Origin: Natrononativus amylolyticus
GTDB lineage: Archaea > Halobacteriota > Halobacteria > Halobacteriales > Natrialbaceae
NCBI RefSeq assembly: GCF_024362525.1
Contig: NZ_CP101458.1
Location: 2,480,001-2,544,000 of the forward strand
Reading direction: 5' to 3'
Length of the DNA stretch: 64,000 nucleotides
The notes beneath the pieces are model-generated. The model was not told where the DNA came from and made no database searches. It saw only the letters and a list, made by a program, of their open reading frames with translations. A program made the translations under genes and the position numbers. This document shows, piece by piece, positions 21,323 through 64,000 of the stretch. Each line of letters opens with the position of its first letter. The first letter of the stretch is position 1.

Positions 21323-21388
21323 GCCCTCGAAAACCGCGAGGGACCGCCGAACCGGGGCGTTTACGTGGATCTGACCGAACCTCGAGCC

Positions 21389-26958: not shown

Positions 26959-27849
26959 TCAGGCGTGCGTGAGGTAGTTTCCGGAGCACCAGACCCAGGC
27001 GTTGTACGCTGGCGCGTGGACGCCCCACCACGTGATGCCGTCGCTGTCTTCGGGGCCGTTCATGATCTCGCCGGTCGTCCCCTCCGCGAGCACTTGCTCG
27101 ACGTCGTAGTGGAGCCCCGGCCCCTCGCGGCCGTTGAGGTCCGTCGTGGTGACGACCTGGTCGCCGTCCTGGAACTCGCCGCCGCCACCGCCGCCACCAC
27201 CGTCCCCGTCGCGGACGTAGTCCATGAACGTGTCCGGATCCCAGTCCGGGCCGGGACAGGACTTCGTGGACGTGCTGCCGCAGTGACTCGAGGAGGTCGG
27301 CGCGTGGCGATGACCGATGATGCCGCCGCCCTGCTCGCAGCGCGCCTCGTCGTAGGTGAAGTACCGCAGCGGGATGTCATACTGGTCTGCGAGCTCGCGG
27401 ACCAGCGACGCGGAGGCCTGGTAACACTCCTCGGTGAAGTAGCGGCCGTAGTCCTCGTGCCACTCGTGTTCGATGCCGATCGAGGGGCTGTTCGTCCCCG
27501 AGGCGTGCCAGGCGACGTCCTCGTGGTGGACCATCTGGGTGACGTGCCCCGGCGCGAAGTTCGTGTGATCGTAGTTGCTCACGACGTAGTGTGCCGAGAC
27601 GTTCGAGTCGGAGTTCTGGAACCAGCTGATCGCCCCCGAGTAGCTGCCGACGGTGCAGTGGACGACGATCCAGTTGATGTCGCCCGCCCCGCGGGAGGAC
27701 GCGCTGTAGTTGCTCGCGTCGGCCGCGACGAACCGGTCGGCCGTGTTCGTCTGGGTGTGACTCGCTCGTGCGGTGTCGATACCTGTGGCGTACAGTCCGC
27801 CTGCCCCGGCGGTTGCGCCAGTTGCCTGAAGGAAGCGTCGTCGCTCCAT
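26959..27849 (-). CDS. Tat-exported N-acetylmuramoyl-L-alanine amidase-like enzyme with C-terminal SH3-like domain
   Basis: This 296-residue protein starts with a Tat leader (MERRRFLQATGATAGAGG, cleavage plausible near residue 30). The amidase_2/PGRP domain spans about 40-210. Residues matching the zinc site and catalytic set of T7 lysozyme are His64 (VVHCT), Tyr88 (SAHYVV), His180 (IIGHRH), Lys196 and Cys198 (TKSCPGPDW). A glycine run (217-224) links to an SH3-like domain (VVTTTDLNGREGPG to WVWCSGNYL) that may bind cell wall. Haloarchaea lack murein, so a bacterial-wall target is the natural reading. There is no obvious immunity gene. Confidence 0.9.
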   Translation of the reverse strand: MERRRFLQATGATAGAGGLYATGIDTARASHTQTNTADRFVAADASNYSASSRGAGDINWIVVHCTVGSYSGAISWFQNSDSNVSAHYVVSNYDHTNFAPGHVTQMVHHEDVAWHASGTNSPSIGIEHEWHEDYGRYFTEECYQASASLVRELADQYDIPLRYFTYDEARCEQGGGIIGHRHAPTSSSHCGSTSTKSCPGPDWDPDTFMDYVRDGDGGGGGGGGEFQDGDQVVTTTDLNGREGPGLHYDVEQVLAEGTTGEIMNGPEDSDGITWWGVHAPAYNAWVWCSGNYLTHA

Positions 27850-27860
27850 AATGCGTTAGA

Positions 27861-27918
27861 GACTGTCAAGCGAGAACGAATCAGTTCACCCCATGACTGT
27901 CAAACGTGGTTATATCCT
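27861..27918 (-). promoter_or_regulatory. Promoter region of the exported amidase with a repeated GACTGTCAA
   Basis: GACTGTCAA occurs at 27861-27869 and again at 27895-27903. The minus-strand TATA-like GGATATAACC lies at 27909-27918, about 60 bases before the ATG at 27849. Both repeat copies therefore fall in the untranslated leader, downstream of the TATA box, where a bound protein could block transcription. Confidence 0.4.
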
Positions 27919-35563: not shown

Positions 35564-35639
35564 TATTGAGGCTGTCACGGACCTCCGAGTCGGCGGATAC
35601 CGGTCCGTAACGTGTTTCGTTCACTCCGCCGGTGTGGCC

Positions 35640-45173: not shown

Positions 45174-47195
45174 CTACCGCAGGTGCGTCTCGAAGGCGCC
45201 CTCGAGCTTTTCGATCGTCCGCGCCCAGGTCGCCCGCCGGGAGAAGACGTGGCCCTCGTCGGGGTAGTACTCCGCCTCGAACGCGACGTCGGAGTCGAGC
45301 AGGGCGTCGACGACGAGGTCCTGCTGTTCGACGTTCACGTACCGGTCGGCGGTGCCGTGGAAGTTGTACAGCGGGGTCTCGTAGCGATCCACGTGCGTGA
45401 TCGGGCTGGAGTCAGCCCACCGCTCCGGCGCCTCGAGCGGCGTGCCACCCATGCGAACGCTCGTCGCCGAGGCGATCTCGGGGAACTTCGTCTCGGCGGC
45501 CCACTCGTAGTAGTTCGCCCGGTCGACGAGCCCGGCGAGATTGACGGTCACGTCGAACGTTCCCGGATGGGTACCGGGAAGCTGGAGTGCCGCGTATCCC
45601 CCGTAGGAGAGCCCCCAGAGGCCGACGGCGTCGCTCGTGTACTCGAGGCCCCGGAGGAAGTCGGCCCCGCGGGCGATGTCGTCCATCTCGGCGCGCCCGG
45701 TGACGCCGGCGATCGCCGCCCGAAACTCGCGGCCGTAGCCGATGCCGCCGCGGTAGTTCACGAACAGTCCGACGTATCCCTTCGCGGCGAGGTACTGCTG
45801 GATCGCGTACTGCAGTCCGTAGGACCGCTCGGGGTGGAAGCCGTCGCGCATCTGACGCATCGGGCCGCCGTGGACGTAGACCACGCTCGGCAGGTCGGTC
45901 GCGTCGTCGGGAACCGCCTCCCCCCTCCGGGGGTCGAGGAGGTAGCCCTCGACGGTTAACCCGCTGCTCTCGTAGGAGATCCGCTCCGGCTCGGTCGGCG
46001 GCGACGGCCAGGACTCGACCCCCGAGCGGGTGAGTCGGCGGTCGCGGACGCCGTCGTCGGCTGCGGCGGTTCCGGCCGCCGTCTCGCCGTCGCCGGTCGG
46101 GGTCGCGCCTCCCTCGAGGTCCAGCACCCGGAGCTCCGTCGAGCGCTCGGCGCTCGCGTGGCGGTAGGCGAGTCGGCTGCCGTCGGGGGACGGGCGCGGA
46201 TCGACGGCCGTCCCCTCGCGCTCGACCAGCGGCGTGATCTCGCCCTCGAGCGTGACGGCGTAGAGCTGTCGCTGGCCCGGATCGCGGCGGTTGGATGCGA
46301 AAACGAGCGTCTCGTCGTCGAGCCACCGCGGCGCCGACCCCGCGAAACCCTTGTCCTCGAACGCTCCCGCCGTGAGCTGGGTACGCTCGCCCGACTCGAG
46401 GTCGATAACGTAGACGTGCTCGAAGCCGTCGAGCGGAAACGCCGCGGCCAGGTTCGAGCCGTCCGGTGACACCTGCGGCGAGCCCCGCGAGAGCGTTCCA
46501 ACCTCGCCGTCTTCCTCGCGAAAGAGGGTCGTCTCGCCTCCCTCGAGGTCGGCCGCGACGAACTCCCTGACTGTGCCGTACTCCCCGCTGCGCTCGAACA
46601 GCAGGCGACCGTCGGCGAGCCAGACCGGCGAGTGCGAGGACGTATCGGGTCGGGTCCGCCAGACCAACTCCCCCGAGTCGGTGTCGATCACGCCGACGCA
46701 CTTCGCCTCGCGCTCGACGAACCGGTAGGCGAGCAGGCCGTCCTCGCGCGGGGCGAGCATTCGCGACTCGCCCAGGAACGGCCCGCGCTCGGGGACGTCG
46801 AAGCCGCGTTCGATGCCGTCTGCGAGCGAGCGTATCCACGGGCAACCGTCGCGGTAGAATGCGATGCGGTCGCCGTCGTCCGACCACGCGAACGAACCGT
46901 CGCCGTCCGGAGTTCGGGCGAGTTCGGTGATGGTTCGCTCGAGCGGGTCGAGGAGGACCATCGCGCCGTCGTCGGTTCCACAGACGAGGACGGGATCGGT
47001 CGGCGACCAGGCGAACTCGGTAACGTGGGCGTCGTTCGGACGGACCCGCCAGGGATCACCGTCGTCGCCGGGACGAGAAACCAGTAGCGCGTTCCCGTCG
47101 TCCTCGTAGATCGTCGCCCCGAGAAACGCCGAGTCGGTCGACCACGCTGGCGGGCCGGGCCACTCGAGGTCGAGAACGTCGTCGACTGTGAGCAT
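45174..47195 (-). CDS. S9-family serine peptidase (prolyl-oligopeptidase/acylaminoacyl-peptidase type)
   Basis: This 673-residue protein has an N-terminal beta-propeller of about 400 residues with WSPTDPVLVCGTDDG- and WSDDGDRIAFY-type blades, then an alpha/beta-hydrolase domain. The oxyanion region YVHGGPMRQM lies near residue 435. The catalytic set is Ser530 in GLSYGGYA, Asp617 in GTADRYVN and His649 in DEGHVFSRR. There is no signal peptide, so it acts in the cytoplasm on short peptides. An Ala/Thr/Gly linker lies near 365-385 between propeller and hydrolase. It converges with the KDG-kinase-like gene. Confidence 0.92.
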   Translation of the reverse strand: MLTVDDVLDLEWPGPPAWSTDSAFLGATIYEDDGNALLVSRPGDDGDPWRVRPNDAHVTEFAWSPTDPVLVCGTDDGAMVLLDPLERTITELARTPDGDGSFAWSDDGDRIAFYRDGCPWIRSLADGIERGFDVPERGPFLGESRMLAPREDGLLAYRFVEREAKCVGVIDTDSGELVWRTRPDTSSHSPVWLADGRLLFERSGEYGTVREFVAADLEGGETTLFREEDGEVGTLSRGSPQVSPDGSNLAAAFPLDGFEHVYVIDLESGERTQLTAGAFEDKGFAGSAPRWLDDETLVFASNRRDPGQRQLYAVTLEGEITPLVEREGTAVDPRPSPDGSRLAYRHASAERSTELRVLDLEGGATPTGDGETAAGTAAADDGVRDRRLTRSGVESWPSPPTEPERISYESSGLTVEGYLLDPRRGEAVPDDATDLPSVVYVHGGPMRQMRDGFHPERSYGLQYAIQQYLAAKGYVGLFVNYRGGIGYGREFRAAIAGVTGRAEMDDIARGADFLRGLEYTSDAVGLWGLSYGGYAALQLPGTHPGTFDVTVNLAGLVDRANYYEWAAETKFPEIASATSVRMGGTPLEAPERWADSSPITHVDRYETPLYNFHGTADRYVNVEQQDLVVDALLDSDVAFEAEYYPDEGHVFSRRATWARTIEKLEGAFETHLR

Positions 47196-47316: not shown

Positions 47317-48906
47317 ATGTCAACTGCTGACATTGCGTTTCGAAACGCGCGGCTGATCGACGGGACGGGCGCGCCGTGGACCCGCGGTGAGCTCGCGGTC
47401 GCGGAGGGCCGGATCGCCGAGATCGGTCACGACGTCGGCGACGCCGCGGTCGAGATCGACCTCGAGGGCCACGTCCTCGCGCCGGGCTTTATCGACATCC
47501 ACACCCACTCCGACTTCACGCTGCCCGCGAACCGGGAGGCCCACAGCAAGGTCCGCCAGGGGGTGACCACGGAGATCGTCGGCAACTGCGGAACGAGCGC
47601 CGCGCCCACCTACGGCGAGTGCGCCGAGTCCGTCGCCGAAGGGTTCGCCTACCGAGGGGTCGGCGACGTCGTCGACACCGACGAGTGGGTGACGATGGCC
47701 GACTACCTCGACTACCTCGAGGAGGGCGTCTCGCTCAACGTCGGCTCGCTGGTCGGCCACGAGAACGCCCGCGAGGCGGTGATCGGCTACGAGGACCGCG
47801 AACCCACCGAGGAGGAACTCGAGGAGATGAAGGAAATCGTCGACGAGGCGCTGGCCGACGGCGCCGTGGGGCTCTCGACGGGGCTCATCTACACCCCCGG
47901 CGCGTTCGCCGACACTGACGAGATCGTCGAACTCGCCTCCGTGGTCGCCGACCACGGGAAACTGTACTGCACCCACATGCGAAGCGAGGGCGACGAGCTG
48001 TTCGAGGGGCTCGAGGAGGCCATCGAGATCGGACGACGGGCGGGGGTTCCGGTCCAGGTCTCCCACCACAAGGCCGTCGGTCGGGACAACTGGGGGAAAG
48101 TCGAGTACACCCTCCGGCGGATGGAACTCGCCCGCGAGCGCGAGGGCGTCGACGTCCAGTGCGAGCAGTACCCCTACGTCGCCTCCTCGACGAGTCTCAG
48201 CGCCCGCGTGCCCACGTGGGCCCGCGACGGCGGCACGGAGGCGCTGCTCGAGCGGCTGCAGGACCCCGACACCCGCGAGCGGATCGGGCGCGAACTCGCC
48301 GAGAACACCGACTCCTGGGACGACATTCTCGTGACGAACGTCCGGACCGAGGGCCTCGAGCACCTCCAGGGGTCGACCATCGCCGAACTCGCCGCCCGCG
48401 AGGGCGAGTCCCGCAGTCCCGAAGAACTCACAATGGACGTCCTGATCGAAGATCGGTGCCGGACCAAGCACATCCACTTCTGTCTGAGCGAGAACGACGT
48501 CGAGACAGTTATGCAGCATCCGTTGACGATGATCGGCAGCGACGGCAACTCGATGCGAAACGAGGGGCCGCTCGGCGAGGGCGTGCCGCACCCGCGCAGC
48601 TACGGCACCTTCCCGCGGGTGCTGGGCCACTACGTCCGCGAGGAGGGGGTTCTGGGGCTCGAGGAGGCGATCTTCAAGATGACCGGTCAGCCCGCCGCCC
48701 GGCTGGGGCTCTCCGATCGCGGCCTGCTGAAGGAGGGGGCGTTCGCGGACCTCACCGTCTTCGATCCCGAAACCGTCGCTCAGGGCGGCACGTTCGTCGA
48801 GCCGGACGTCTACGCCGAGGGGATCGACCACGTGCTCGTCAACGGCGAGTTCGTCGTCCGCGACGGCGAGCACACCGGGGCGCGGCCGGGCGTCGCGATC
48901 CGGTAG
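47317..48906 (+). CDS. N-acyl-D-amino-acid deacylase-type amidohydrolase
   Basis: This 529-residue protein belongs to the amidohydrolase superfamily. IDIHTHSDFTLPANREAH gives the HxH metal pair, followed by VVGNCG-like EIVGNCGTSAAP with the Cys of D-aminoacylases. Later metal residues appear in CTHMRSEGDEL, QVSHHKAVGRDNWG and MIGSDGNSMRNEGP. The family removes acyl groups from N-acyl-D-amino acids or cleaves D-amino-acid dipeptides. No signal peptide. It could act on products of D-amino-acid peptides imported by the transporter near 53-60 kb, but they are not adjacent. Confidence 0.87.
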   Translation: MSTADIAFRNARLIDGTGAPWTRGELAVAEGRIAEIGHDVGDAAVEIDLEGHVLAPGFIDIHTHSDFTLPANREAHSKVRQGVTTEIVGNCGTSAAPTYGECAESVAEGFAYRGVGDVVDTDEWVTMADYLDYLEEGVSLNVGSLVGHENAREAVIGYEDREPTEEELEEMKEIVDEALADGAVGLSTGLIYTPGAFADTDEIVELASVVADHGKLYCTHMRSEGDELFEGLEEAIEIGRRAGVPVQVSHHKAVGRDNWGKVEYTLRRMELAREREGVDVQCEQYPYVASSTSLSARVPTWARDGGTEALLERLQDPDTRERIGRELAENTDSWDDILVTNVRTEGLEHLQGSTIAELAAREGESRSPEELTMDVLIEDRCRTKHIHFCLSENDVETVMQHPLTMIGSDGNSMRNEGPLGEGVPHPRSYGTFPRVLGHYVREEGVLGLEEAIFKMTGQPAARLGLSDRGLLKEGAFADLTVFDPETVAQGGTFVEPDVYAEGIDHVLVNGEFVVRDGEHTGARPGVAIR

Positions 48907-51700: not shown

Positions 51701-52783
51701 CTACCGCTCGCGACGTCCCCGCACGTCGGTTCGGTCGGGGAACGGCGACTCGAGGGCCGCCGCGAGGACGTCGACGGTCGCCTCGGCGTCGGCCATTTCG
51801 ATGGTCTCGACGGGCGAGTGGGTGTACCGGCAGGGAACCGCGATCGCCCCGGCGTGGCGCGCGCCGCCCGCCCGTTGAAACTCCGTCGCGTCGGTGGTGC
51901 CGCCGATCATCACGTCGTGCTGGAGGGCCACACCCGCGGTGTCGCCCGCCCGTTGGAGCCACTCGAGGCTCTGGCGGTCGACCAACACGCCGCCGAAGAG
52001 GTACTCCGAGGTGCCGTCGGCGAACTCGACGACCGGGCCGCCGCCGAGGGAGACGGAACTCGAGCGCTCGCCGTCGACGGGGTAGTCGTCGGTGGGGAAG
52101 ATCTCGAGGGCGACCGCGATGTCGGGGTCGACGTCGTGGACGGCCGCCCGCGCCCCGCGCAGGCCGACTTCCTCCTGGACGGTGGCGGCGTAGTGGACGG
52201 TTCTGTCGGTGTCAGTCTCGCGGGCGACGGCGAGGAGGATCGCCAGCGCGATCCGGTCGTCGAGCGCCCGGCCGGCGAGGCGGCCGCCGACGAGGTCGAC
52301 GAGGCCGCGGTCCCACGTGGCGTGATCTCCCGCCTCGACGTTGGCCGCAGCCACCTCCTCGGGGCCGCTGGCTCCGATGTCGATGTGGGTCGTCTCCGGC
52401 AGATCGCCCTTCTCGTCGTCGGACATGAAGTGACGCGGCTTCGCGGCGATAACGCCCGGCACCTCGTCCGGTCCCACGAGTACGCGCTGGCCGAGCAGGT
52501 AACCCCGGTAGTGGCCGCCGAGCATGGAGTACGAGAGGAGGCCGTCGTCGGTGATCCCGTCGACGAGCAAGGCGAGTTCGTCGGTGTGGGCGGCGAGCAT
52601 GACTTCTTCAGCCTCCGGGTCGTTGCCGTGGCTCGTCGCGATCACGTTGCCCAGTGCGTCCCAGCGGATCTCGTCGACGTGAGGGTCGATCAGTTCCTCG
52701 AAGACCGCTGCGACGGCGTGTTCGTCCCCCGGCGGGCCGCGGGCGGCGACGAGTCGGTCGAGTTCCGCGCGCTCGAGTGTCAT
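51701..52783 (-). CDS. M42-family metallo-aminopeptidase
   Basis: From the ATG at 52783 this has 360 residues. The metal ligands of family M42 are visible: His-Asp in AAHTDELALLVDG near residue 65, the bridging Asp in AGRALDDRIALAI near 170, Glu-Glu in TVQEEVGLRGA near 202, an Asp in ALEIFPTDD near 225 and a final His in CRYTHSPVE near 313. These are cytoplasmic tetrahedral-complex aminopeptidases that trim short peptides. A longer frame to 53053 overlaps the next gene and lacks similarity. Confidence 0.92.
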   Translation of the reverse strand: MTLERAELDRLVAARGPPGDEHAVAAVFEELIDPHVDEIRWDALGNVIATSHGNDPEAEEVMLAAHTDELALLVDGITDDGLLSYSMLGGHYRGYLLGQRVLVGPDEVPGVIAAKPRHFMSDDEKGDLPETTHIDIGASGPEEVAAANVEAGDHATWDRGLVDLVGGRLAGRALDDRIALAILLAVARETDTDRTVHYAATVQEEVGLRGARAAVHDVDPDIAVALEIFPTDDYPVDGERSSSVSLGGGPVVEFADGTSEYLFGGVLVDRQSLEWLQRAGDTAGVALQHDVMIGGTTDATEFQRAGGARHAGAIAVPCRYTHSPVETIEMADAEATVDVLAAALESPFPDRTDVRGRRER

Positions 52784-52867
52784 GCGTCGGCGGTAGGTCG
52801 ACGGAAAGGTAGCTCTTCCGACCGCTGACGAAAGGCCCAAACCGGGGTCGTTCCTCTTCCCTACCGA

Positions 52868-53377
52868 ATGAGTCGAGACGACAGACCCCGTCCGGCGCCG
52901 GGCGAAGCCGTAGAGCGCGACTCCCGCGAGGGCCGCCGCGTCGGGTTCGTCGGCCCGCGGCTGCCGACCAGCCTCTCCTGTCGGCTGCTCTCGTGTTCGC
53001 TCGAGGCGCCCGCGAGGGTCGTCGCGGGAACGCCGGCGGCGTTTCACTTCCACGTGAAAAACCGGGCGCCGATGAGCCTCACGCTCGCGTGTTCCTCGAG
53101 TCGTTCGTGGGGGTGGACGGTCGACGGCGTTCCCGAGGCGGGGGCGGGGCGGTTCGATCCCCCGGCGACTGCGGCAACCGTCGCGCTCGGTCCGCGAGAG
53201 CGCCGGACGTTCACCGGCCGGTGGGACGGACAGTTCCTCGAGACGGACGAGCGCGGAGAGCGGTGGACCGCGGAGCCGGGGATTTACACGCTCACGGCGT
53301 ACGTTGCGGTCGAAAACTGGCGGTACCGAGGCGTGTTCGCGAGTACGGATCTCGCGGTCGAATCCGGTCGGGGCTAG
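52868..53377 (+). CDS. Hypothetical protein with a BsuPI-like beta-sandwich
   Basis: This 169-residue protein has a 35-residue charged N-terminus, then a domain with LEAPARVVAGTPAAFHFHVK, FTGRWDGQFLETDERG and WTAEPGIYTLTAYVAVENWR. The RWDG and PGxYTLTAY pattern resembles the intracellular-proteinase-inhibitor (BsuPI) fold, but similarity is weak. There is no leader. It stands just upstream of the peptide-binding protein gene (65-base gap), so it could be transcribed with the importer, or be unrelated. Confidence 0.5.
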   Translation: MSRDDRPRPAPGEAVERDSREGRRVGFVGPRLPTSLSCRLLSCSLEAPARVVAGTPAAFHFHVKNRAPMSLTLACSSSRSWGWTVDGVPEAGAGRFDPPATAATVALGPRERRTFTGRWDGQFLETDERGERWTAEPGIYTLTAYVAVENWRYRGVFASTDLAVESGRG

Positions 53378-53442
53378 TATGCTAGGAGGCGGGTATTTCC
53401 CCTACCTGTGGGAGTACAACCCATACCAGAGGTGTGTTCTGT

Positions 53443-55143
53443 ATGAACAAAAACCACGATCGATCGGATCTGAACCGGCGACGGTTTGTCAAGTCGATGG
53501 CGGCCGTTGGGGGAGTAGGACTGTTCGCGGGTTGTACCGGCGACGACGAACCACCCGTCGGCGGCGACGACGATGGCGGGAACGGCGCGAACGGCGGCGG
53601 TGAGGGCGGGACAGCGATCATCGCTCAGGGGGGCGAGATCGAAACGCTCGACCCGCGGATGAACTCGCTGGCGTGGTACAGCACCGCGGCGCACTACATG
53701 TTCGACTCGCTGCTCATGATGGAGCCGGACGGCGAGGGAACCGTCCCTCACCTCCTCGAGGATCACCTGGAGGAAGAAGACGAGGTGACCTACGTCGGAC
53801 AGCTCGAGGAGGGCGTCATGTTCCACAACGGCGAGGAGATGACCGCCGAGGACGTGGCGTACACGTACAACTGGGTGCTCGACCCCGACAACGCCTCGCC
53901 TCGAGCGTCGTTCATCGACTTCATCGACGAGGTCGAGGCGACCGGCGACTACGAGATCACGCTTCACCTCGAGTACCCGTTCGCGCTGCTCGAGAACATT
54001 CTGGCGGGAATGTACGCGCCCGTCGTCCCGATGGACGCCGCCGAGGAGATGGGACAGGAGGAGTTCGAGCAGGCGCCGATCGGCACGGGGCCGTTCCAGT
54101 ACGCCGATCACGGATCGGCGTCGCACCTCACGATGGAGCGCTTCGACGACTACTTCCTCGGCACGCCGCGTCTCGACGGCGTCGAGTACGAAATCATCCC
54201 CGAAGAGGAGGTCGCGTTCGTCGAACTCGCGACCGGCGGCGTTCACCAGACCTCGGTTCCGGAAGTCCTCATCGACGAGGCGGAGGAGAACGAGGAGGTC
54301 AATCACAAGATCTTCTCGGCGTTCAACTACCGGGGGTTCATCCTCAACTGCCTCGAGGAGCCGTTCGACGACGTAGAGGTTCGAGAGGCGCTGCACTACC
54401 TCGTCGACTACGACGAACTGATGCTCGGCGCCGTCGACCAGCTCGGCTCCAGAAGCTGGGGATACATGCCACAGGGAGTCGTCGACGTCTGGGACTTCCC
54501 CTACGAAGAGTGGGAAGCGGAGTACTATCCCGATCAGGACCGCGACCAGGCGGCGGATATGCTCGAGGGCGCGGGCGTCGACCTCGACTCCCTCGACGTC
54601 GACATCCTGGCGCTGTCCGGCGAGAACTGGATGGGGATGTCGGTCGTCCTCCAGAACGAGTTCGAACAGATCGGCGTCGACGCCTCCATCCGCGAGGTCG
54701 GCACCGGCGAGTGGCTCGACGCGCTCGACGAAGGGACGTTCGACATCTGTACGTACGGGTTCGGCGTCGGTGACGACCCGGACGGCATGTTCTACAACTT
54801 CTTCCGCGACCTCGAGAACGACGACGGCGGCATGGACGAGGGAACTCTCGGCAACTCCTCGGCGGGCTACGTCCACGAGGCCTACCGGGGCACCGACACC
54901 GAAGACGAACTCCAGCGCCTCGACCAGCACATTCGAGACGGCCGTTCGACGCTCGACCAGGACGAGCGCTACGAACACTACGTCGAAGCGGCAGATATCG
55001 TCCACAGCAACTACGTCGGCATTCCGGTGTACGCGGGCGAGAACGTGACCGGCTGGCGGACCGAGCTTCAGGACTACGAACCGACGGAGTTCGGCGATCA
55101 GGAGCTGTTCAACCACTGGCAGGAAGCGTGGCTCGACGAGTAA
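53443..55143 (+). CDS. Oligopeptide ABC importer, Tat lipoprotein substrate-binding protein
   Basis: From the ATG at 53443 the protein has 566 residues. NRRRFVKSMAAVGGVGLFAG ends in a Cys, combining a twin-arginine motif with a lipobox, so it is exported folded and lipid-anchored outside. An acidic Gly/Asp linker follows (residues 31-55). The mature part is a family-5 binding protein: ETLDPRMNSLAWYSTAAHYM, VMFHNGEEMTAEDVAYTYNW and DREALHYLVDYDELM-like motifs. It captures di- or oligopeptides. The genes for two permeases and two ATPases follow in order. Confidence 0.92.
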   Translation: MNKNHDRSDLNRRRFVKSMAAVGGVGLFAGCTGDDEPPVGGDDDGGNGANGGGEGGTAIIAQGGEIETLDPRMNSLAWYSTAAHYMFDSLLMMEPDGEGTVPHLLEDHLEEEDEVTYVGQLEEGVMFHNGEEMTAEDVAYTYNWVLDPDNASPRASFIDFIDEVEATGDYEITLHLEYPFALLENILAGMYAPVVPMDAAEEMGQEEFEQAPIGTGPFQYADHGSASHLTMERFDDYFLGTPRLDGVEYEIIPEEEVAFVELATGGVHQTSVPEVLIDEAEENEEVNHKIFSAFNYRGFILNCLEEPFDDVEVREALHYLVDYDELMLGAVDQLGSRSWGYMPQGVVDVWDFPYEEWEAEYYPDQDRDQAADMLEGAGVDLDSLDVDILALSGENWMGMSVVLQNEFEQIGVDASIREVGTGEWLDALDEGTFDICTYGFGVGDDPDGMFYNFFRDLENDDGGMDEGTLGNSSAGYVHEAYRGTDTEDELQRLDQHIRDGRSTLDQDERYEHYVEAADIVHSNYVGIPVYAGENVTGWRTELQDYEPTEFGDQELFNHWQEAWLDE

Positions 55144-55214
55144 GCCCTCGACCGAGCGTAGCCTGTCGCTGAGATACCGCACCCCCCTTTCGAAACCTCC
55201 AACTGTACGCAACT

Positions 55215-56165
55215 ATGGGAATGCTTCGTTACACGCTCCGACGGCTCGTCCAGATGATTCCGGTGCTGTTCGGCGTCGTGACCCTCACCTTCGTCATGAT
55301 GCACGCCCTGCCGGGCGACCCGGTCCGGATCTACCTCGGGCTCGAGCCGAGTCAGGAGATGGCAGACGACCTCATCGAACACTACGGATTCGACCGACCG
55401 TGGTACGAACAGTACTTCGACTACCTTCTGCGGCTCGTCCAGGGCGACCTCGGCTACTCGTTTACGTACCGACAGTCGGTTAGCAACCTGATGCTCGAGC
55501 GGATGGGGCCGACGGCGGTCATCATGACCCTGTCGTACCTCATCGCGCTGCCGACCGCGATCGGGCTGGGCGTCTACGGCGCCGCCCGACACAACCGCGC
55601 CGGTGACCACGTCTCGCGCATCCTCGGTCTCGCCGGCATCTCGACGCCGAACTTCTGGCTGGCGCTGATGCTGATCTACCTGGTCGCCTACGAACTCCAG
55701 GTGCTCCCGGCGTCCGGCTACGTTTCGCCGCTCGAGGACCCGATCGAGTCGGCGAAGCTGCTCGTCATGCCGGTCGTCACGCTCGCGACGGCACAGACGG
55801 CGCTGCTGATGCGAATGACCCGCTCGAGTATGATCGAGGAACTCCGCGCCGAGTACGTCGAGACGGCCCGTGCCTACGGAATCCCCGAGCGACGGGTGCT
55901 CTACAGGCACTCGTTCCGGAACGCGCTGTTGCCGCTGATCACCATCATCGGTCTGCAGATCTCGTTCCTGCTCAGCGGGAGCGTCATCGTCGAGGAGATC
56001 TTCGCCATCCCGGGAATGGGGCGGCTGTTCTTCGACTCGCTCGTCCAGCACGACTACTCCGTCGCGATCGGCGTCACGCTGTTCTTCTCGACGCTGTTCC
56101 TGATCGGCGTGTTGCTGACCGACCTCGCGTACGCGTACATCGACCCACGGATCAAGTATGATTGA
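55215..56165 (+). CDS. Oligopeptide ABC importer, DppB-type permease
   Basis: This 316-residue protein has six membrane segments. MLRYTLRRLVQMIPVLFGVV starts it, HALPGDPVRIYLG is the DppB/OppB external motif near 31-43, and EYVETARAYGIPERRVLYRH near 213-232 is the EAA loop that docks on the ATPase. It forms the channel with the DppC-type protein. It follows the binding protein by 71 bases. Confidence 0.94.
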   Translation: MGMLRYTLRRLVQMIPVLFGVVTLTFVMMHALPGDPVRIYLGLEPSQEMADDLIEHYGFDRPWYEQYFDYLLRLVQGDLGYSFTYRQSVSNLMLERMGPTAVIMTLSYLIALPTAIGLGVYGAARHNRAGDHVSRILGLAGISTPNFWLALMLIYLVAYELQVLPASGYVSPLEDPIESAKLLVMPVVTLATAQTALLMRMTRSSMIEELRAEYVETARAYGIPERRVLYRHSFRNALLPLITIIGLQISFLLSGSVIVEEIFAIPGMGRLFFDSLVQHDYSVAIGVTLFFSTLFLIGVLLTDLAYAYIDPRIKYD

Positions 56166-56166
56166 G

Positions 56167-56244
56167 ATGACTCCAGACAGAGCGCTCGACTCGGACGTCT
56201 CGCGGCGAGACGATGGGACGACTGCGGCCGGAGGTGACAGATGA
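56167..56244 (+). other. Possible 25-codon ORF linking the two permease genes
   Basis: ATG at 56167, two bases after the stop of the first permease, opens MTPDRALDSDVSRRDDGTTA and on, and ends in a TGA overlapping the second permease start as ATGA (56241-56244). It fills almost the whole 75-base spacer. It may serve only to pass ribosomes along, or be a chance frame. Confidence 0.3.
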
Positions 56245-57299
56245 GTTCCGAACAGAGTCGCGTCGCCGACACGGACTTCGACTCCGGGAGCGGTCTCCTG
56301 GCGACGCTGAAGAAGCTCAGGTACAGCCCGACCTCGCTCGTCGGCGTCTTCCTGATCGGGATGCTCGTCGTCATGGCCGTGTTCAGCGCCATCGACAACT
56401 TCCTGCTCAACAGGGCGGTTATCACGTGGTTACACGCCGATCCGCACGCGATGGATCAGAGTATGCGCTACTCCGAGCCGTCGCGCGAGCACCCGATGGG
56501 GACCGACCGCTACGGGCGTGACATCCTCGTCCGGATCGTATACGGGAGCCGAACCGCGCTCACCATCGGCATTCTGGCCGTCGGTATCAGCTTCGTCGGC
56601 GGGATCATCACCGGTGCCGTCTCCGCCTACTTCGGCGGCTACATCGACGACACGCTGATGCGCCTGGTCGAGATCCTGTACGCCATCCCGGGGCTCGTCC
56701 TCGCGATGATCTTCATGGCCATCTTCGGTCCGAGCATCGAGAACCTGTTTATCGCGTACGGCATCGTCGGCATCCCGGCGTACGCCCGCGTGATGCGTTC
56801 GGAGGCGCTGTCGATCCGCGACCGACAGTACGTCGAGGCGGCCAAACTCGCCGGCCTCCCCCGGCGGACGATCCTCTTTCGCGAGATCGTCCCGAACGGG
56901 CTCGCGCCGGTCGTCGTGCAGGCGACGCTCTCGATGGGCGGCGTCATCATCGGCGCGGCGGCGCTCTCGTTCCTCGGGTTCGGGGTGCAGGAGCCGACGC
57001 CCGACTGGGGGCGCATGCTCTCTGACGGCCGGACTGCACTGCTCGTCGCCTGGTGGGTCGCGTTCTTCCCCGGCCTGATGATCTTCATCACCGTGATGGG
57101 ATTCAACATGCTCGGCGACGGCCTGCGCGACATCATGGACCCGAAGATGACCGTCGAACCAACTCCCTACGACGACTGGAACTTAGAGGAATGGACCGCA
57201 GACCAGCAGACCGAGACGGGCGACCCGGACCTGCCGGCCGACTCGCCGGCGGCCCGTGCCGACGGCGCCGGCCCCCAGACCGGGGGTGATCGCTCGTGA
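56241..57299 (+). CDS. Oligopeptide ABC importer, DppC-type permease
   Basis: This 352-residue protein has a hydrophilic N-terminus, one early membrane segment, then HPMGTDRYGRDILVRIVYGS near 81-100, the DppC hallmark. The EAA loop RDRQYVEAAKLAGLPRRTIL is near 193-212. An acidic tail of about 45 residues ends the protein. Its last codons overlap the GTG of the first ATPase by four bases, so the two are co-translated. Confidence 0.94.
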   Translation: MSSEQSRVADTDFDSGSGLLATLKKLRYSPTSLVGVFLIGMLVVMAVFSAIDNFLLNRAVITWLHADPHAMDQSMRYSEPSREHPMGTDRYGRDILVRIVYGSRTALTIGILAVGISFVGGIITGAVSAYFGGYIDDTLMRLVEILYAIPGLVLAMIFMAIFGPSIENLFIAYGIVGIPAYARVMRSEALSIRDRQYVEAAKLAGLPRRTILFREIVPNGLAPVVVQATLSMGGVIIGAAALSFLGFGVQEPTPDWGRMLSDGRTALLVAWWVAFFPGLMIFITVMGFNMLGDGLRDIMDPKMTVEPTPYDDWNLEEWTADQQTETGDPDLPADSPAARADGAGPQTGGDRS

Positions 57300-58321
57300 G
57301 CCTCCTCGAGGTCTCCGACCTCCGGACGTACTTCTTCACGCCCGACGGGATCGTCCAGGCCGTCGACGGCGTCAGCTTCGAGGTCGACGCCGGCGAGTCC
57401 CTGGGGGTCGTCGGCGAGAGCGGCGCCGGCAAGAGCGTCGCCGTCAAGAGCATCATGGGACTCATCCGCGAGCCCGGCCGGGTCGTCGACGGCAGCATTC
57501 GCTTCGACGGCCGTGAGCTCACGGATCTCTCCGAGACCGAACTCAGACGGGAGATTCGCGGCAACGAGATTTCGATCGTCTTCCAGGACGCGATGTCCGC
57601 GCTCAACCCCGTCTTTACCGTCGGCAGCCAGCTCGAGGAGGTCATCGTCGAGAACACCGGCCGCACCAAGTCGGAAGCCCGCGAGCGGGCGATCGAACTG
57701 CTCGACGACGTCGGCATCCCCGACGCCGACCAGCGCATCGACGAGTACCCTCACCAGTACTCCGGCGGGATGCAACAGCGAGCGATGATCGCGATGGCGC
57801 TCGCCTGCGACCCGCGGCTCATCATCGCCGACGAGCCGACGACCGCGCTGGACGTGACGATTCAGGCGGGGATCCTCGAGCTGTTCGACGAGATCCAGGA
57901 GAAACACGACACGAGCATCGTCTACGTCACCCACGACCTGGGAGTCGTCCGCGAGGTCTGCGACCGGGTCGCGGTGATGTACCTCGGGAAGGTCGTCGAG
58001 TCGGCGCCCTACGACGAGCTGTACCGGAACCCGAAACACCCCTACACGCAGTCGCTGCTCAACTCCGTGGTGACCCCCGACGAGACCTTAGACGAGATCA
58101 ACCCGATCGGCGGCACGATGCCTTCCGCCGTGTCGCCGCCGTCGGGCTGTCGGTTCCGGACCCGGTGTCCGGTCGCCTACGAGGAGTGCTCGACGGTGGC
58201 TCCCCCGCGGTACGACGTCGGGTCGGACGACGTCCACCACGACGCGGCGTGTCTGCTGTACGAGGAGGGAAACCCCCGCGAGGAGCCGCGGCTGCACGAG
58301 ACGGAGGTACCGACGGAATGA
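57296..58321 (+). CDS. Oligopeptide ABC importer, DppD-type ATPase
   Basis: This 341-residue ATPase starts at GTG 57296. Walker A GESGAGKS lies at about 40-47, [15 protein letters not shown] is the signature near 158-172 and [12 protein letters not shown] the Walker B near 178-189. The oligopeptide C-terminal domain has [18 protein letters not shown] near 280-297, the Cys-rich element that binds an iron-sulfur cluster in some Dpp ATPases. Confidence 0.94.
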
Positions 58322-58377
58322 CCGCGACCGCAGACCGCCCGACCGGGGCGACGACCACAACGGAGGCGTTCGCATGA
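58318..58377 (+). other. Possible 19-codon ORF bridging the two ATPase genes
   Basis: ATG at 58318 overlaps the TGA of the first ATPase gene (ATGA) and opens [19 protein letters not shown]. Its TGA overlaps the second ATPase's ATG (58374-58377), again ATGA. Four-base overlaps at both ends make it a strict relay. No similarity is recognised. Confidence 0.35.
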
Positions 58378-59669
58378 GTACGAATCCACAGGCCGAATCA
58401 CGCGCCGTCCGCGAGGACGGCGCGGAGCCGCTGCTCGAGGTATCGGGACTGAAAAAGCACTTTCCGGTGAACGCGGGGCTGTTCGCCTCGGTTCGCCTCG
58501 ACCGCGAGTCGGGTGGGCTCCCGTTCCGGTATGACGACACCAGCGTCAAAGCCGTCGACGGCGTGGACTTCACGCTGCGTCCCGGCGAGACCCTCGGCGT
58601 CGTCGGCGAGTCCGGCTGCGGGAAGTCGACGCTGGCTCGCACCATCCTCGGACTGGAGGAGCCGACGGCCGGCGAGGTCCGATTCGACGGTCGACTCACG
58701 GCCGACATTCCCGAATCGGAGTTCCGCAAGCGGAGCCAGATGGTGTTTCAGGACCCTCACTCGAGTCTGAACGGCCGGCGCAAGGTCGGGCCGATCATCG
58801 AGGACCCGCTCGAGGGGGCCGGCTGGGAGAAGGAGAAACGGCGCGAGCGCGCCCTCGAGTTGCTCGAGCAGGTGGGGCTCAAGCGGGAGTACTACAACCG
58901 CTACCCCCACGAGTTCTCGGGCGGCCAGCGCCAGCGGATCAACCTCGCGCGGGCGCTGTCGATCAACCCCGATCTCGTGGTGGCGGACGAACCAGTGAGC
59001 GGCCTCGACGTCAGCGTCCAGGCCCAGATCCTCAACCTGATGGACGACCTTCAGGAGGAGTACGGGCTGACCTACCTGCTGATCAGCCACGACCTGAGCG
59101 TCGTGCGCTACATCGCCGACCGCGTGGCGGTGATGTACCTCGGCGACTTCGTCGAGGTGGCGCCGACCGAACAGCTGTTCGCCGAACAGCACCACCCCTA
59201 CGCGCGGGCGTTGCTGGGGGCGGTGCCGAACCCCGACCCCGACAAGCCCGGCGTTCGATCGCAGATTTCGGGTGCCGTCCCGAGCGCGTCGAACCCGCCG
59301 CGGGGCTGTAAGTTCCACACCCGCTGTCCCGAGTTCATCCTCCCCGACGGGTTCGGCCGGGCGGCCTACGACGAGTACGAGGCGCTGCTCGAGGACGTCC
59401 GCGGGCGCGAACTCGCGGCGAGCGAGTCGCCGAAGGCGGTGTTCGAGGCGTACATCGACAGCGGCGGGGTGCCACGGGAGGCGGAGAACACCGTCAAAGC
59501 CGCCGCGAGCGAGGCCCTCGACGGGGAGTGGGAGCGGGCGGCCCGCACCCTCGAGGAGTACGAGTCGCCGTGTCAGGCGACCACGCCGCCGCTCGAGCCC
59601 ACGGACCGGCCCGAACACGAGGCCGCCTGTCACCTGCCCGCCGAGGAGGTGAGAGACGATGCAGTCTGA
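58374..59669 (+). CDS. Oligopeptide ABC importer, DppF-type ATPase with C-terminal insertion
   Basis: This 431-residue ATPase has Walker A GESGCGKS at 78-85, [19 protein letters not shown] near 182-200 and [12 protein letters not shown] near 203-214. The C-terminal oligopeptide domain starts with [19 protein letters not shown] near 302-320. It is interrupted by about 90 extra residues before the usual closing [20 protein letters not shown]. The usual length is about 330. The end overlaps the start of the D,D-peptidase gene by 11 bases. Confidence 0.93.
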
Positions 59670-61011
59670 GGCCGAGAGCCGGGAGGGACCGGTCGAACGG
59701 GCCTTTCCGGACCTCGAGTCGACGAGCGCGAGCGTGTTCGCCCGCGACCTCCGGACCGGCGAGGTGCTCGCGGCCTCGAGCCCGGAGGTCCCCCTGCTCC
59801 CGGCGTCGAACGCCAAACTCGTCACCGCCGCTCGAGGGTTCACCGAACTCGGCACCGACTACCGCTTCGAGACGCGGGTGTACGCCGTCGGCGAGCGCCG
59901 CGAGGAGCATCTCGTCGGCGACCTCGTCGTGGTCGGCCGGGGGGCGCCCGACCTCTCGCAGGCCGACCTGATGACCCTCGCCGCCGAGGTCGCCGACAGC
60001 GGGATCGAGACCGTCGCCGGCGAACTCGTCGTCGACGCCTCCGCGTTCGACCGACAGGCGCTCGGGCCGGGCTGGACCTGGGACGACGGCCAGTTCGCCT
60101 ACGGCGCCAAGAGCACGCCCCTCGCCCTAGAGCGCAACACCGTCGACATCACGATCACCAGTCAGGACGGCGCCGTCCAGGTCGACGCCTCGCCGACCTC
60201 GGAGATCGTCCGGTTCGACGTCGACGTGACGGTCGACGAGGCGAGCGCGGAACCCGACCTCTCGGTGTACAAAAAGCGCGCCTCGGAGGTGATCCGCGTC
60301 GAAGGGACGGTCCCTCCGGAGACGACCGTCGTGGAGGCGAGTCCCGTCGACGACCCGATGTTTCACGCGGCGAGCGTCTTCCGGGACGCCCTCGAGAGCA
60401 AGGGCGTCTCGATCGACGGCTGGATGCGTATCGACCACGAGCCGATCGAACCGGAACACGCCCCCGTCGCGACCGCCGAATCCGCGCCGCTCTACGAACT
60501 CGTCCGCGGGATGCTCACCGACTCCGACAACTTCGCCGCCGAACAGCTCGCGCGAACGGTCGCCTTCGAACTCGAGGGGTCGGGCGGCTGGGCGGAGTGG
60601 GAGTCACACGTCGTCGAATTCCTCGCGGACCGCGGCACCGAGGCCGTCCGGCTTCGGGACGGCTCCGGGCTCTCGCGGTACAACTTGCTGTCGGCGTCGA
60701 GCCTCGTCGCCGTCCTCGAGTGGTGTCTCGAGCAGCCCTGGCACGAGCAGTTCGTCGACTCCCTCCCCCGCGGCGGCCACGAGGGAACGGTCGAGAACCG
60801 CCTCGAGGACGTGCCGGCGACCGTTCGAGCGAAGACCGGGACGCTCACGGGTGCGCGGGCGCTGTCGGGCTACCTCCTCGCGGACGGTGAGCCCGTCGTC
60901 GTCTTCTCCTGTCTCCGCTCGAACCTGACCGGAGAGGCCGAAACCGCCGCGACCGACCGGATCGACGAGTTCGTCGGATCGCTCGCCGTCGAGGCCGGAT
61001 TCGAGGCGTAG
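59659..61011 (+). CDS. dacB: D-alanyl-D-alanine carboxypeptidase/endopeptidase, PBP4-like (S13 family)
   Basis: This 450-residue protein has all three motifs of penicillin-binding fold D,D-peptidases: Ser50-x-x-Lys53 in ASNAKLVTAARG, Ser289-Asp-Asn291 in LTDSDNFAAEQL, and Lys392-Thr-Gly394 in VRAKTGTLTGARALSGY. The 230-residue insertion between motifs one and two is the PBP4-specific domain. No signal peptide or membrane anchor is seen, so it should stay in the cytoplasm, unlike bacterial PBP4. It starts inside the second ATPase gene after a GAGGTGAG ribosome-binding-like stretch, tying it to the importer. The likely substrate is imported peptides with D-Ala-D-Ala or D-linked ends. Confidence 0.92.
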   Translation: MQSEAESREGPVERAFPDLESTSASVFARDLRTGEVLAASSPEVPLLPASNAKLVTAARGFTELGTDYRFETRVYAVGERREEHLVGDLVVVGRGAPDLSQADLMTLAAEVADSGIETVAGELVVDASAFDRQALGPGWTWDDGQFAYGAKSTPLALERNTVDITITSQDGAVQVDASPTSEIVRFDVDVTVDEASAEPDLSVYKKRASEVIRVEGTVPPETTVVEASPVDDPMFHAASVFRDALESKGVSIDGWMRIDHEPIEPEHAPVATAESAPLYELVRGMLTDSDNFAAEQLARTVAFELEGSGGWAEWESHVVEFLADRGTEAVRLRDGSGLSRYNLLSASSLVAVLEWCLEQPWHEQFVDSLPRGGHEGTVENRLEDVPATVRAKTGTLTGARALSGYLLADGEPVVVFSCLRSNLTGEAETAATDRIDEFVGSLAVEAGFEA

Positions 61012-61076: not shown

Positions 61077-61778
61077 CTACAGCGCGTTCGTCCGTCGCCG
61101 TTCGCGGTCCCGGAGCTCCCGGAGCACCCGGTCGAGGATCGCCGCCTCCCCCTTTCGAAGGTGCTCGAGCGCCGTCGGCGCCGAGACGTCGTTTTTCTCG
61201 GCCAGTTCCTTCGCGGAGACGTCCCGCGGCCAGCCGTAGTACCCTTCCTCGAGCGCCGACAGCAGGTAAGACAGCTGGCGCGCGGAGATGTCGCGCTGGA
61301 GTTCGTCGACGAGGTCGTGGGCGTCGATCTCCTCGGGTTTGTAGTCGATGACCCGCCGGACGTCGACGTCGGCGACCTCCTCCAGGGCCGCGACCGACTG
61401 GCCGATCTCAGACCCGTCGGCGAGCAGCGTCCAGTGCTCGCGGTCGTCGACGACCCGGACCTCGCCGATCGGCGTCAGCGAGGAGGAGACCAGCGTGGTG
61501 TAGATGGAGTCGTTCGCGTCGGACCGGGTGTGGATCCGCACGGAGTCGCCGCGGGACTCGAGGACGTCCGTCGAGCGGACGGAGCCGTACGTCGTCACCG
61601 CCGCTTCGACCTCCGCGAGGTCGGCGTCGCCGCTCGAGGTGAGCACGACCGTCGCGAGGATGTCGGTGCCGTCCGAGCAGATGTCGGTGACGACGAGTTC
61701 GGCGCCCGGAAACCGCCTCGTCAGTGCCAGCATCCAGCAGTCTTCGTGCCAGAGACGAAGCCCGATCCGTTTTTTCAT
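61077..61778 (-). CDS. HTH_10 (Bat-type) transcriptional regulator
   Basis: This 233-residue protein has an N-terminal sensory region of about 160 residues (starting MKKRIGLRLWHEDCWMLALT) and a C-terminal HTH_10 at about 165-225. There LSYLLSALEEGYYGWPRDVS and ELAEKNDVSAPTALEHLRKG follow the family pattern. These regulators are specific to haloarchaea; the ligand of this one is unknown. It lies between the importer/peptidase operon and the hydrolase gene on the opposite strand, so it is a candidate regulator of both. Confidence 0.9.
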   Translation of the reverse strand: MKKRIGLRLWHEDCWMLALTRRFPGAELVVTDICSDGTDILATVVLTSSGDADLAEVEAAVTTYGSVRSTDVLESRGDSVRIHTRSDANDSIYTTLVSSSLTPIGEVRVVDDREHWTLLADGSEIGQSVAALEEVADVDVRRVIDYKPEEIDAHDLVDELQRDISARQLSYLLSALEEGYYGWPRDVSAKELAEKNDVSAPTALEHLRKGEAAILDRVLRELRDRERRRTNAL

Positions 61779-61842: not shown

Positions 61843-62742
61843 TTACCGCGCGAGAAGCCGGTACACCGCCTCGCCGACGCCGGCCACCGCGTCGGTCCCG
61901 TACCCCCAGTGTGCGAGGCGGTCGGTGCAGACGGCGTAGACGAGCGTTCGATCGCCGACGGTGAGCAGTCCCGCGTCGGCCGCGACGGACTCGATCGACC
62001 CCGTCTTGTGGGCGATCTCGACGTCGTCGGTTTCGGTCGGCAGGTACCGAGCGGCCATCGAGGCGTCCGTCTGTTCGGCGAGCGGGACGAGCAGGCGCTC
62101 GGAGGCCGCCGGGGACAGCCGCTCGCCGCGGTGGATCCCCCCGAGGAGTCGCGCGCAGTCGAGCGGCGTGACCGTGTTCAGGTACGGCCCCTCGGGAACC
62201 GACGCCCCCGCGAGCGGCTCCGTCCGCATCATCTTCCGCCGGAGCGCCGTCCCTTCCAGCCCCAGCCGATCCGCACACGCGGCGATCCGCTCGAGGCCGA
62301 GGTGGTCGATCAGTTCGTTCGTCGCCGTGTTGTCGCTGATGGCGATCATCGCGTACGCACACTCCTCGAGGGTGGGGCGGGGCGACTCGAGCAGGTGGAA
62401 CAGGCCGGCGCCGCCGACGCGGTTCTCCGGCGAGATCGGCCCGCGCTCGGAGAGTTCCTCGAGGCGGCCGTCGTAGCGCTCGTAGAGCGCGTAGAGGAGC
62501 AGGAGCTTCACGACGCTCGCGCTGCCGAACCGCTCGCTGTGCGCCCGCGCGACGATCGGGTCCCCTTCGGGGGCGTCCGCGTCGCCGACGTACACCCCCA
62601 GTCGCCCCTCGAGCCCGTCGGCGACGGCGTCGACGTACGTCCCGAGTTCGGCCGCCGACCGCAGCGACGGTGGCGGACGGGCCACCGTCCGACCGCGCTC
62701 GATTCCGCCGTCGTCGCGCCCGAAAGCGTCGCTTCCGTCCAT
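61843..62742 (-). CDS. Class A beta-lactamase-fold serine hydrolase
   Basis: From the ATG at 62742 this has 299 residues; an ATG at 62766 is the alternative. Motifs are Ser76-Val-Val-Lys79 (SxxK), Ser136-Asp-Asn138 (SDN), Glu175 in the omega-loop position (RTEPLAG) and Lys246-Thr-Gly248. The residue corresponding to Asn170 is Gly. No leader peptide, so cytoplasmic. Haloarchaea lack the target of beta-lactams; a peptidase or esterase activity on D-peptides is more plausible. It is followed 64 bases later by the regulator and is divergent from the PLP decarboxylase. Confidence 0.85.
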   Translation of the reverse strand: MDGSDAFGRDDGGIERGRTVARPPPSLRSAAELGTYVDAVADGLEGRLGVYVGDADAPEGDPIVARAHSERFGSASVVKLLLLYALYERYDGRLEELSERGPISPENRVGGAGLFHLLESPRPTLEECAYAMIAISDNTATNELIDHLGLERIAACADRLGLEGTALRRKMMRTEPLAGASVPEGPYLNTVTPLDCARLLGGIHRGERLSPAASERLLVPLAEQTDASMAARYLPTETDDVEIAHKTGSIESVAADAGLLTVGDRTLVYAVCTDRLAHWGYGTDAVAGVGEAVYRLLAR

Positions 62743-62828
62743 ACGGTGCGTCCGGTCGCGGACCACCAGAACCGTGACCCTCGCATGCTAGGGCCTCCCT
62801 TTTCACGTGACGTGGGCATGGCGAACGT
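62743..62828. promoter_or_regulatory. Divergent promoter region between the hydrolase and the PLP decarboxylase
   Basis: The 86-base gap separates start codons on opposite strands. A CTCCCTTTTCACG stretch 25-30 bases before the ATG at 62829 is TATA-like for the decarboxylase; none is obvious for the hydrolase. Shared control of the two genes would follow from this spacing. Confidence 0.4.
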
Positions 62829-64000
62829 ATGCACCTCGAGGCACGGCGAGCGCGGCTTCTCGAACGGGAGTCGGCGCTCCGGTCGCCGTTCGAAACGCCA
62901 GTCTACGTCTTCTGGGAGGACGACATCAGGGAGAACTACCGGCGCCTGCGTGGCGCCCTCGACGACCACTACCCGGACTCCGCGATCCACTTCGCGGTGA
63001 AGGCGAACTACAATCCCGGCATCCTCTCGGTGCTCCGCGACGAGGGCTGTCGCGCCGAAGTGTACGCCGGCGGCGAGCTCACCGCGGCCCTCGAGGCCGG
63101 CTTCGATCCGTCGGAGCTGCTCGTGACCGGGATGAACCGCCGGCCGGCCGACGTCGAGCGCGCTCTCGAGTGCGGCGTCGAGCGGTTCCTCGTCGACAAC
63201 GCGACCGAACTCGAGCGGCTGATCGAGATCGCGACCGACCTCGAGCGCCGCCCGCAGGTGCTGATTCGCGGCAACCCCTCCATGGAGGTGCCGACTCACC
63301 CCGAGGTGGCGACGGCGACCCACGAGACCAAGTTCGGGCTGGACATCGACTCGGGCCGGGCGATGACCGTCGCCGAGCGGGCCGTCGACTCCGCCGCCGT
63401 CGACCTGACGGGTGTCCAACTTCACATCGGCAGCCAGATCAAAAGCGCTGAGCCCTACGGCGTCGCCGCGCGGGCGATGTGCGGGTTCGCCGCCGAGATC
63501 CGCGACGAACTCGGCGTCGAGATCGACGTCCTCGACCTCGGGGGCGGCTTTCCCGTCTCCTACGACGAGGACGTTCCCGCCGCCGAAACGATCGTCGAGC
63601 GGATCGCCGACACCGTCGCCGAGGCGACGGCCGAGGCAGGACTCCCGGCGCCGACGCTCTACCTCGAGCCGGGCCGGCGGCTCGTCGGCAACGCCGGCAC
63701 CCTGCTCGCGACCGTCGGCGTCGTCAAGGAGACCCCCTACCGGACGTTCGCCGTCCTCGACGCGGGGACGAACGCCGTCTCCTCGTACTGGCCGTACCCG
63801 ATCTACGCCCTCGCCGAGGGCGAGCCGACCGAACGCTACCACGTCGCCGGTCCGCTCTGTTACTCCGGGGACGTGATCGCCGAAGACGTCCCCCTGCCGC
63901 CGCTCGAGCGGGACGACGTGATCGCCGTCGACCGGATCGGCGCCTACTCGCTGGGCAGCGCCTCGAACACGAACGCCCAGCCGAAGCCGCCGGTCCTGCT
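62829..64000 (+). CDS. Diaminopimelate-decarboxylase-like PLP enzyme, C-terminal end missing
   Basis: The frame runs from the ATG at 62829 off the right edge, giving 390 residues. It is a type III fold PLP decarboxylase. The PLP lysine is in HFAVKANYNPG near residue 58, LHIGSQI near 201, DLGGGFP near 235 and YLEPGRR near 279. The substrate-side Cys lies in GPLCYSGDVIAED near 343. LysA decarboxylates meso-diaminopimelate to lysine; ornithine/arginine-type relatives share the fold. Diaminopimelate would be available from bacterial murein peptides, which fits the neighbours. No stop is seen, so the end is unknown. Confidence 0.86.
   Translation, partial: MHLEARRARLLERESALRSPFETPVYVFWEDDIRENYRRLRGALDDHYPDSAIHFAVKANYNPGILSVLRDEGCRAEVYAGGELTAALEAGFDPSELLVTGMNRRPADVERALECGVERFLVDNATELERLIEIATDLERRPQVLIRGNPSMEVPTHPEVATATHETKFGLDIDSGRAMTVAERAVDSAAVDLTGVQLHIGSQIKSAEPYGVAARAMCGFAAEIRDELGVEIDVLDLGGGFPVSYDEDVPAAETIVERIADTVAEATAEAGLPAPTLYLEPGRRLVGNAGTLLATVGVVKETPYRTFAVLDAGTNAVSSYWPYPIYALAEGEPTERYHVAGPLCYSGDVIAEDVPLPPLERDDVIAVDRIGAYSLGSASNTNAQPKPPVL

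Follow-up and report, generated by a model that had tools for sequence, protein, structure and literature searches.

Why should an archaeon export an enzyme of the peptidoglycan amidase type when it has no peptidoglycan of its own? The question is raised by a gene of Natrononativus amylolyticus, found in a stretch of 64,000 nucleotides (hereafter the window) on the main contig (2.98 Mb) of the 3.99 Mb genome, in which no second Amidase_2 gene was found. The gene and its parts, in window coordinates, are:

26959..27849 (-): Amidase_2 and SH3 protein, predicted to be Tat-exported, 296 aa; a single ORF with exact bounds
27763..27849 (-): twin-arginine leader, residues ~1-29 (MERRRFLQATG...), located with TIGR01409
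27247..27684 (-): Amidase_2 domain, residues 56-201, from Pfam, residue alignment and fold match
27178..27201 (-): glycine linker of 8 Gly, residues 217-224, read from the sequence
26965..27171 (-): SH3-like domain, residues 227-295, common to other exported peptidoglycan hydrolases
27861..27906 (.): a pair of direct repeats, GACTGTCAA(G/A)CG, at a spacing of 34 nt, lying between the amidase start codon and a TATA-like ATATAA

The Pfam Amidase_2 match reaches 95 bits against a curated cut-off of 26 (E=5.2e-27). The leader (RRRFLQ) passes the TIGR01409 cut-off (18.3 versus 16.7 bits), and its R3, R4 and L7 are invariant across 26 relatives, which agrees with the Tat leader proposed in the initial annotation. 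The C-terminal SH3-like domain and glycine run described there are also found. No SH3 or other wall-binding Pfam family matches the C-terminal domain, even at E<=10. The AlphaFold2 model (mean pLDDT 79) ends in an SH3 fold (Foldseek: Src/Lyn SH3, E about 0.002-0.007), and a profile search against solved structures relates the domain to the SH3b of an autolytic lysozyme (E=1e-4). The direct repeats upstream are a possible operator; being two copies, they may be due to chance. Elsewhere in the window, a protein at 33815-35578 (-) weakly resembles pectate lyases and carries an RR motif of the leader type.

The same annotation had assigned the enzyme to the T7-lysozyme family, with His64, Tyr88, His180, Lys196 and Cys198 as zinc and catalytic residues. 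We found that H64, H180, C198 and K196 align with T7 lysozyme His17, His122, Cys130 and Lys128 (literature numbering, without the initiator Met), and all three zinc ligands (H64, H180, C198) are present. The tyrosine did not survive the comparison: T7 Tyr46 aligns with Ala86 and Tyr88 lies opposite a T7 Phe, hence we rejected T7-type catalysis via Tyr88. The catalytic Tyr46 that defines the T7-lysozyme subfamily is thus lacking in the window amidase. Glu127 is invariant in the 26 relatives and aligns to AmpD Glu116 (SIGIE motif); it is the predicted catalytic acid, and K196 the predicted catalytic lysine. The family assignment itself fits the zinc residues and the lysine, but the nearest solved folds to the AlphaFold2 model are XlyA, AmpD and PlyL (E 2e-6 to 4e-5), also AmiA, with T7 lysozyme in 50th place. 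With AmpD, XlyA and PlyL the protein shares the Amidase_2 fold, the zinc site and the catalytic Glu and Lys; it differs from them in its third ligand (Cys here, Asp in AmpD and the aligned bacterial relatives) and in having an SH3 domain and a Tat leader. It resembles T7 lysozyme in fold, His/His/Cys zinc site and Lys, and differs in Ala86 at the Tyr46 position, in the conserved acid Glu127 and in a fold match weaker than to AmpD/XlyA. Haladaptatus-like relatives (L025-L030) have Asp (HTDPGS), not Cys (KSCPGP), as third zinc ligand, and one family has both.

The host's lack of murein, on which the question depends, is supported. No penicillin-binding transpeptidase was found in the genome, while 10/10 bacteria among the control genomes have one. 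The sole Mur_ligase_M match is a 1027-aa ORF whose family is also present in the Haloferax control. Own murein synthesis was rejected on these two grounds.

We searched for relatives in the order Halobacteriales (392 genomes). The whole-protein query matched 69/392 genomes, a few of them through the SH3 domain only, and full-length relatives share 44-71% identity. The SH3 family occurs in 62/392 genomes, and 115 distinct SH3-bearing ORFs were collected. At least one peptidoglycan-cleaving domain is present in 108/115: 43 carry Amidase_2, 40 M23, 17 SLT, 8 glucosaminidase and 5 a SleB-like domain, double ones being entered twice and the SleB-like assignment being tentative (Hydrolase_2 E=0.025, one member). 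The other ORFs comprise 2 GH18, 2 S15, 1 DUF900 and 2 without a recognised partner (one is a fragment). An RR motif of Tat type, sought with a loose pattern, is found in nearly all of them. Natrononativus itself has three SH3 proteins with three chemistries: besides the amidase there are L033, an M23 peptidase, and L032, which is SleB-like. In some genomes SLT, M23 and amidase genes stand in tandem, and some proteins fuse the amidase with a glucosaminidase or an alpha/beta hydrolase. Other haloarchaeal amidases of the same family have PG_binding_1 domains in pairs, not SH3.

The SH3 module thus accompanies five unrelated peptidoglycan-cleaving folds (one tentative) in exported proteins of wall-less archaea, which makes outward action, as suggested initially, the best reading. 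Judged from sequence, it very probably works extracellularly as a peptidoglycan amidase: the window protein, with its Tat leader, fits that role. Two further observations concern the reach of the module. An exported protein of 871 aa (L041:15269-17881(-), L044:7702-10314(-)) combines an alpha/beta hydrolase (DUF900), four SH3 domains and an amidase, and could attack lipid as well as wall. The GH18 members (L210:3094-4794(+) and one other) are chitinase-like proteins with the SH3 module, so the module may not be peptidoglycan-specific.

Where would the products go? The initial annotation guessed that they supply an importer at 53-60 kb, 25.6 kb from the amidase. The genes of that region are:

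45177..47195 (-): S9 oligopeptidase; homologues lie within the import cluster at several other loci, membership tentative
47317..48906 (+): amidohydrolase (Amidohydro_3), tentatively included; L241 has one with 74% identity shortly beyond its epimerase
51701..53053 (-): M42 aminopeptidase, oriented divergently to the importer; adjoins the cluster in L240 too, membership tentative
53434..55143 (+): oligopeptide-binding lipoprotein-like protein (SBP_bac_5; Pfam E=3e-66)
55215..56165 (+): ABC permease, DppB/OppB type (Pfam)
56241..57299 (+): ABC permease, DppC/OppC type (Pfam)
57296..58321 (+): ABC ATPase, DppD/OppD type (ABC_tran and oligo_HPY)
58374..59669 (+): ABC ATPase, DppF/OppF type (Pfam)
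59659..61011 (+): D-Ala-D-Ala carboxypeptidase, S13 (Pfam E=8e-95; R39/PBP4a in PDB)
61077..61778 (-): HTH_10 regulator adjoining the import operon
61846..62766 (-): Beta-lactamase2-type serine hydrolase (S84-x-x-K, S144-D-N, K254-T-G), recurs in the cluster
62829..64000, on to 64139 beyond the window (+): second diaminopimelate decarboxylase (LysA2)

The importer (53434-59669) is a complete Opp/Dpp-type set, with the S13 gene next to it. Its binding protein is closest among solved structures to Lmo0135 and AppA, DppE being weaker; ligand specificity is not readable from SBP_bac_5 membership. The S13 enzyme has the motifs S50-x-x-K, S289-D-N and K392-T-G, and no signal peptide was seen in it. 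The nearest solved relatives of S13 and LysA2 are a D-Ala-D-Ala carboxypeptidase and a DAP decarboxylase, respectively. LysA2 was rejected as the ordinary lysine gene, since that gene sits in dapA-dapB-dapD-lysA-dapF (cluster names read by eye); the lysA of this operon (C1:978549) is 35% identical to LysA2. Overlapping LysA2 by ATGA is a YkfC-type NlpC/P60 gene with SH3_16 (G000:C1:2544136-2545146), whose nearest solved relative is dipeptidyl-peptidase VI. About 2.4 kb past the YkfC type lies an L-Ala-D/L-Glu epimerase (L260:8566-9660) with KxK and DxD motifs (E=1e-67 to a solved L-Ala-D/L-Glu epimerase; best match so named, 1jpm), followed by a PF00144 hydrolase in L260.

Two distinct beta-lactamase-fold hydrolases (window 61846-62766 and L260:9660-10742) belong to the cluster, recur in relatives and are possibly D-peptide hydrolases. 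The window is rich in peptidases, one further example being a pyroglutamyl peptidase (21365-22009, +). The genome has a second S13 DD-peptidase (L258:8338-9822(+), G000:C1:2965337-2966821), 4.5 kb beyond another ABC importer, with a Tat-type leader (RRRF); no canonical KTG motif was found in it.

The order binding protein, permease, permease, ATPase, ATPase, S13 is complete in 17/20 loci around S13 homologues, all 17 from other genomes; of the remaining three, L256 and L257 are cut by the end of a stretch or contig and L258 is the genome's own second S13. LysA2 homologues are present in 17/20 of the loci, the YkfC type in 10/20 and the epimerase in 7/20, counted within the fetched stretches only. 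S13 is overrepresented in genomes with the amidase family (22/69 versus 1/80 family-negative genomes, P=8e-8), as is the YkfC type (27/69 versus 4/80, P=3e-7), P-values that take no account of the species tree. By genus the S13 counts are 7/22 versus 1/46 (P=0.001), and within the window's own family 5/27 versus 0/27 (P=0.05). The YkfC type is present in 22/22 of the family-positive genomes with S13. The association of S13 with the amidase is partly inherited, many positives coming from a single family (f17). S13 is absent from 47/69 family-positive genomes, hence the amidase family does not depend on the S13 cluster.

A hydrolase gene lies within 30 kb of the cluster in 9/26 genomes (1.6 expected). 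With the own genome left out, 8 genomes remain (1.5 expected, P=2e-5), from 4 genera (P=0.005); this threshold was chosen after the data were seen, and linkage is weaker at others (at 15 kb, own genome left out, P is 0.05 when genomes are counted and 0.01 when genera are). One stretch of a relative (L278, G381:C2:541000-560999) holds an epimerase, a Beta-lactamase2, an M55 D-aminopeptidase, an importer, a YkfC type and an Amidase_2, the last two both with Tat-type leaders; the exo-N-acetylmuramidase NamZ, a GH18 protein and a regulator of the IclR type are encoded there as well.

What the sequences show directly is protein families with their motifs and leaders, the order of the genes, and how these co-occur and are linked; the substrates, the order of the steps and the direction of use we infer from this. 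The protein would be a Tat-exported zinc N-acetylmuramoyl-L-alanine amidase, one of an exported SH3-tethered hydrolase family to which the genome's M23 peptidase and SleB-like protein would also belong. Its SH3 domain would keep it close to bacterial wall material outside the cell, while the catalytic domain would split the amide bond between glycan and peptide and set stem peptides free. These, probably trimmed further, would be taken up via the 53-60 kb oligopeptide ABC importer. In the cell, the S13 enzyme would strip the terminal D-Ala, the YkfC-type peptidase would cleave the gamma-D-Glu-DAP bond, the epimerase would convert L-Ala-D-Glu to L-Ala-L-Glu, and the second DAP decarboxylase would turn meso-DAP into lysine. 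The cluster enzymes match the chemistry of the peptides expected from the amidase, which backs the guess of importer supply; moreover, this conserved stem-peptide enzyme set co-occurs with the exported hydrolases and in some genomes adjoins them. No MurQ match passes its cut-off, so that the proposal does not account for the sugars, a point against it; MurNAc use through MurQ was rejected on this ground.

The proposed route resembles the Bacillus dpp/ykf system of murein-peptide utilisation, a comparison that rests in part on a paper on the YkfC structure (PMC2954226). Both have an oligopeptide ABC importer, a YkfC gamma-D-Glu-diamino acid peptidase and an L-Ala-D/L-Glu epimerase, and the D-aminopeptidase of the Bacillus system has a counterpart in the L278 locus. 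Unlike it, the archaeal cluster adds an S13 DD-carboxypeptidase and a second DAP decarboxylase.

Archaeal peptidoglycan hydrolases, their Tat export and the killing of bacteria by them are already published (PLoS Biol 2025, PMC12352652). The Woldo and Danwoldo proteins of that study (Halogranum salarium B-1) are, like ours, Tat-exported modular haloarchaeal peptidoglycan hydrolases; they pair M23 or glucosaminidase domains with PG_binding_1 tethers, whereas here an Amidase_2 domain is paired with an SH3 tether unseen by Pfam. The hydrolase definition of the study combines a catalytic Pfam domain, present in the window amidase, with a Pfam cell-wall-binding domain, which the amidase lacks though its fold is SH3. 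The protein would therefore probably have escaped the survey. According to the study, OppBCDF-MppA homologues are commoner among archaea that have such hydrolases (23% versus 8%); the link reported in PMC12352652 is limited to these, whereas here a peptide-digestion cluster is linked as well. We found no earlier report of a haloarchaeal stem-peptide degradation cluster in the open-access literature.

The amidase and its SH3 relatives could instead be mainly weapons that kill competing bacteria in the manner of Woldo and Danwoldo, the importer cluster then serving general peptide uptake independently of them. Killing has been published for two Tat-leader peptidoglycan hydrolases of haloarchaea (PMC12352652), the family is patchily spread (69/392 genomes), most family-positive genomes have no S13 cluster, and several chemistries on one tether resemble an arsenal. 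However, the co-occurrence and linkage of stem-peptide enzymes and the combined L278 locus would be left unexplained, and we consider this reading credible but unlikely. A related possibility is that the amidase does act on bacterial peptidoglycan and the 53-69 kb cluster handles other D-amino-acid or general peptides, both being marks of generalist heterotrophs. Opp/Dpp importers are common, the S13, S9, M42 and amidohydrolase genes could suit any peptide diet, and both traits cluster phylogenetically. The combination of a gamma-D-Glu-diamino acid peptidase, an L-Ala-D/L-Glu epimerase, a DD-carboxypeptidase and a second DAP decarboxylase nevertheless fits stem peptides closely, which renders a general diet improbable.

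The ancestry of the amidase bears on a further reading, that of a virus-derived endolysin or a protein for the archaeon's own surface rather than for bacteria. PHROG endolysin families do match, and glycans and peptides exist on archaeal surfaces. Against this, we found one weak relative in 2.9 million viral contigs and four weak phage matches, on which grounds viral origin was rejected. In a quick tree, a single branch (SH-aLRT 99) splits 54 haloarchaeal from 44 bacterial domains, the latter selected by search and the root position being unfixed; repeated recent transfer from bacteria is accordingly not supported. The Tat leader and an SH3 module common to M23, SLT and glucosaminidase proteins likewise point to peptidoglycan, and an endolysin or own-surface role seems to us very improbable. 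On the bacterial side, the closest amidase domains found come from actinomycetes, Thermoactinomycetaceae and myxobacteria and are joined to different partner domains. Among them are secreted actinomycete amidases (Jiangella, Nonomuraea, Streptomyces; <= ~48% identity), which carry Golvesin_C or PG_binding_1 in place of the window SH3.

Overall, we favour the reading that the amidase mainly serves nutrition, wall peptides being consumed by way of the linked cluster; killing of neighbours may coexist with it. We also lean slightly towards the broader view that some haloarchaea would possess a complete peptidoglycan-utilisation system, made up of exported SH3-tethered hydrolases of several chemistries and a linked operon for stem-peptide import and breakdown. 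Whether bacteria are rivals or food for such archaea was left open in PMC12352652, and the window offers the missing half of this weapon-or-food question, a candidate pathway for the freed peptides. Our results suggest that surveys demanding a Pfam wall-binding domain overlook the SH3-tethered group, and that archaea in brines may recycle peptidoglycan. If some haloarchaea do have such a utilisation system, bacterial wall, whether living or dead, may be food for archaea, which would then not merely attack bacteria.
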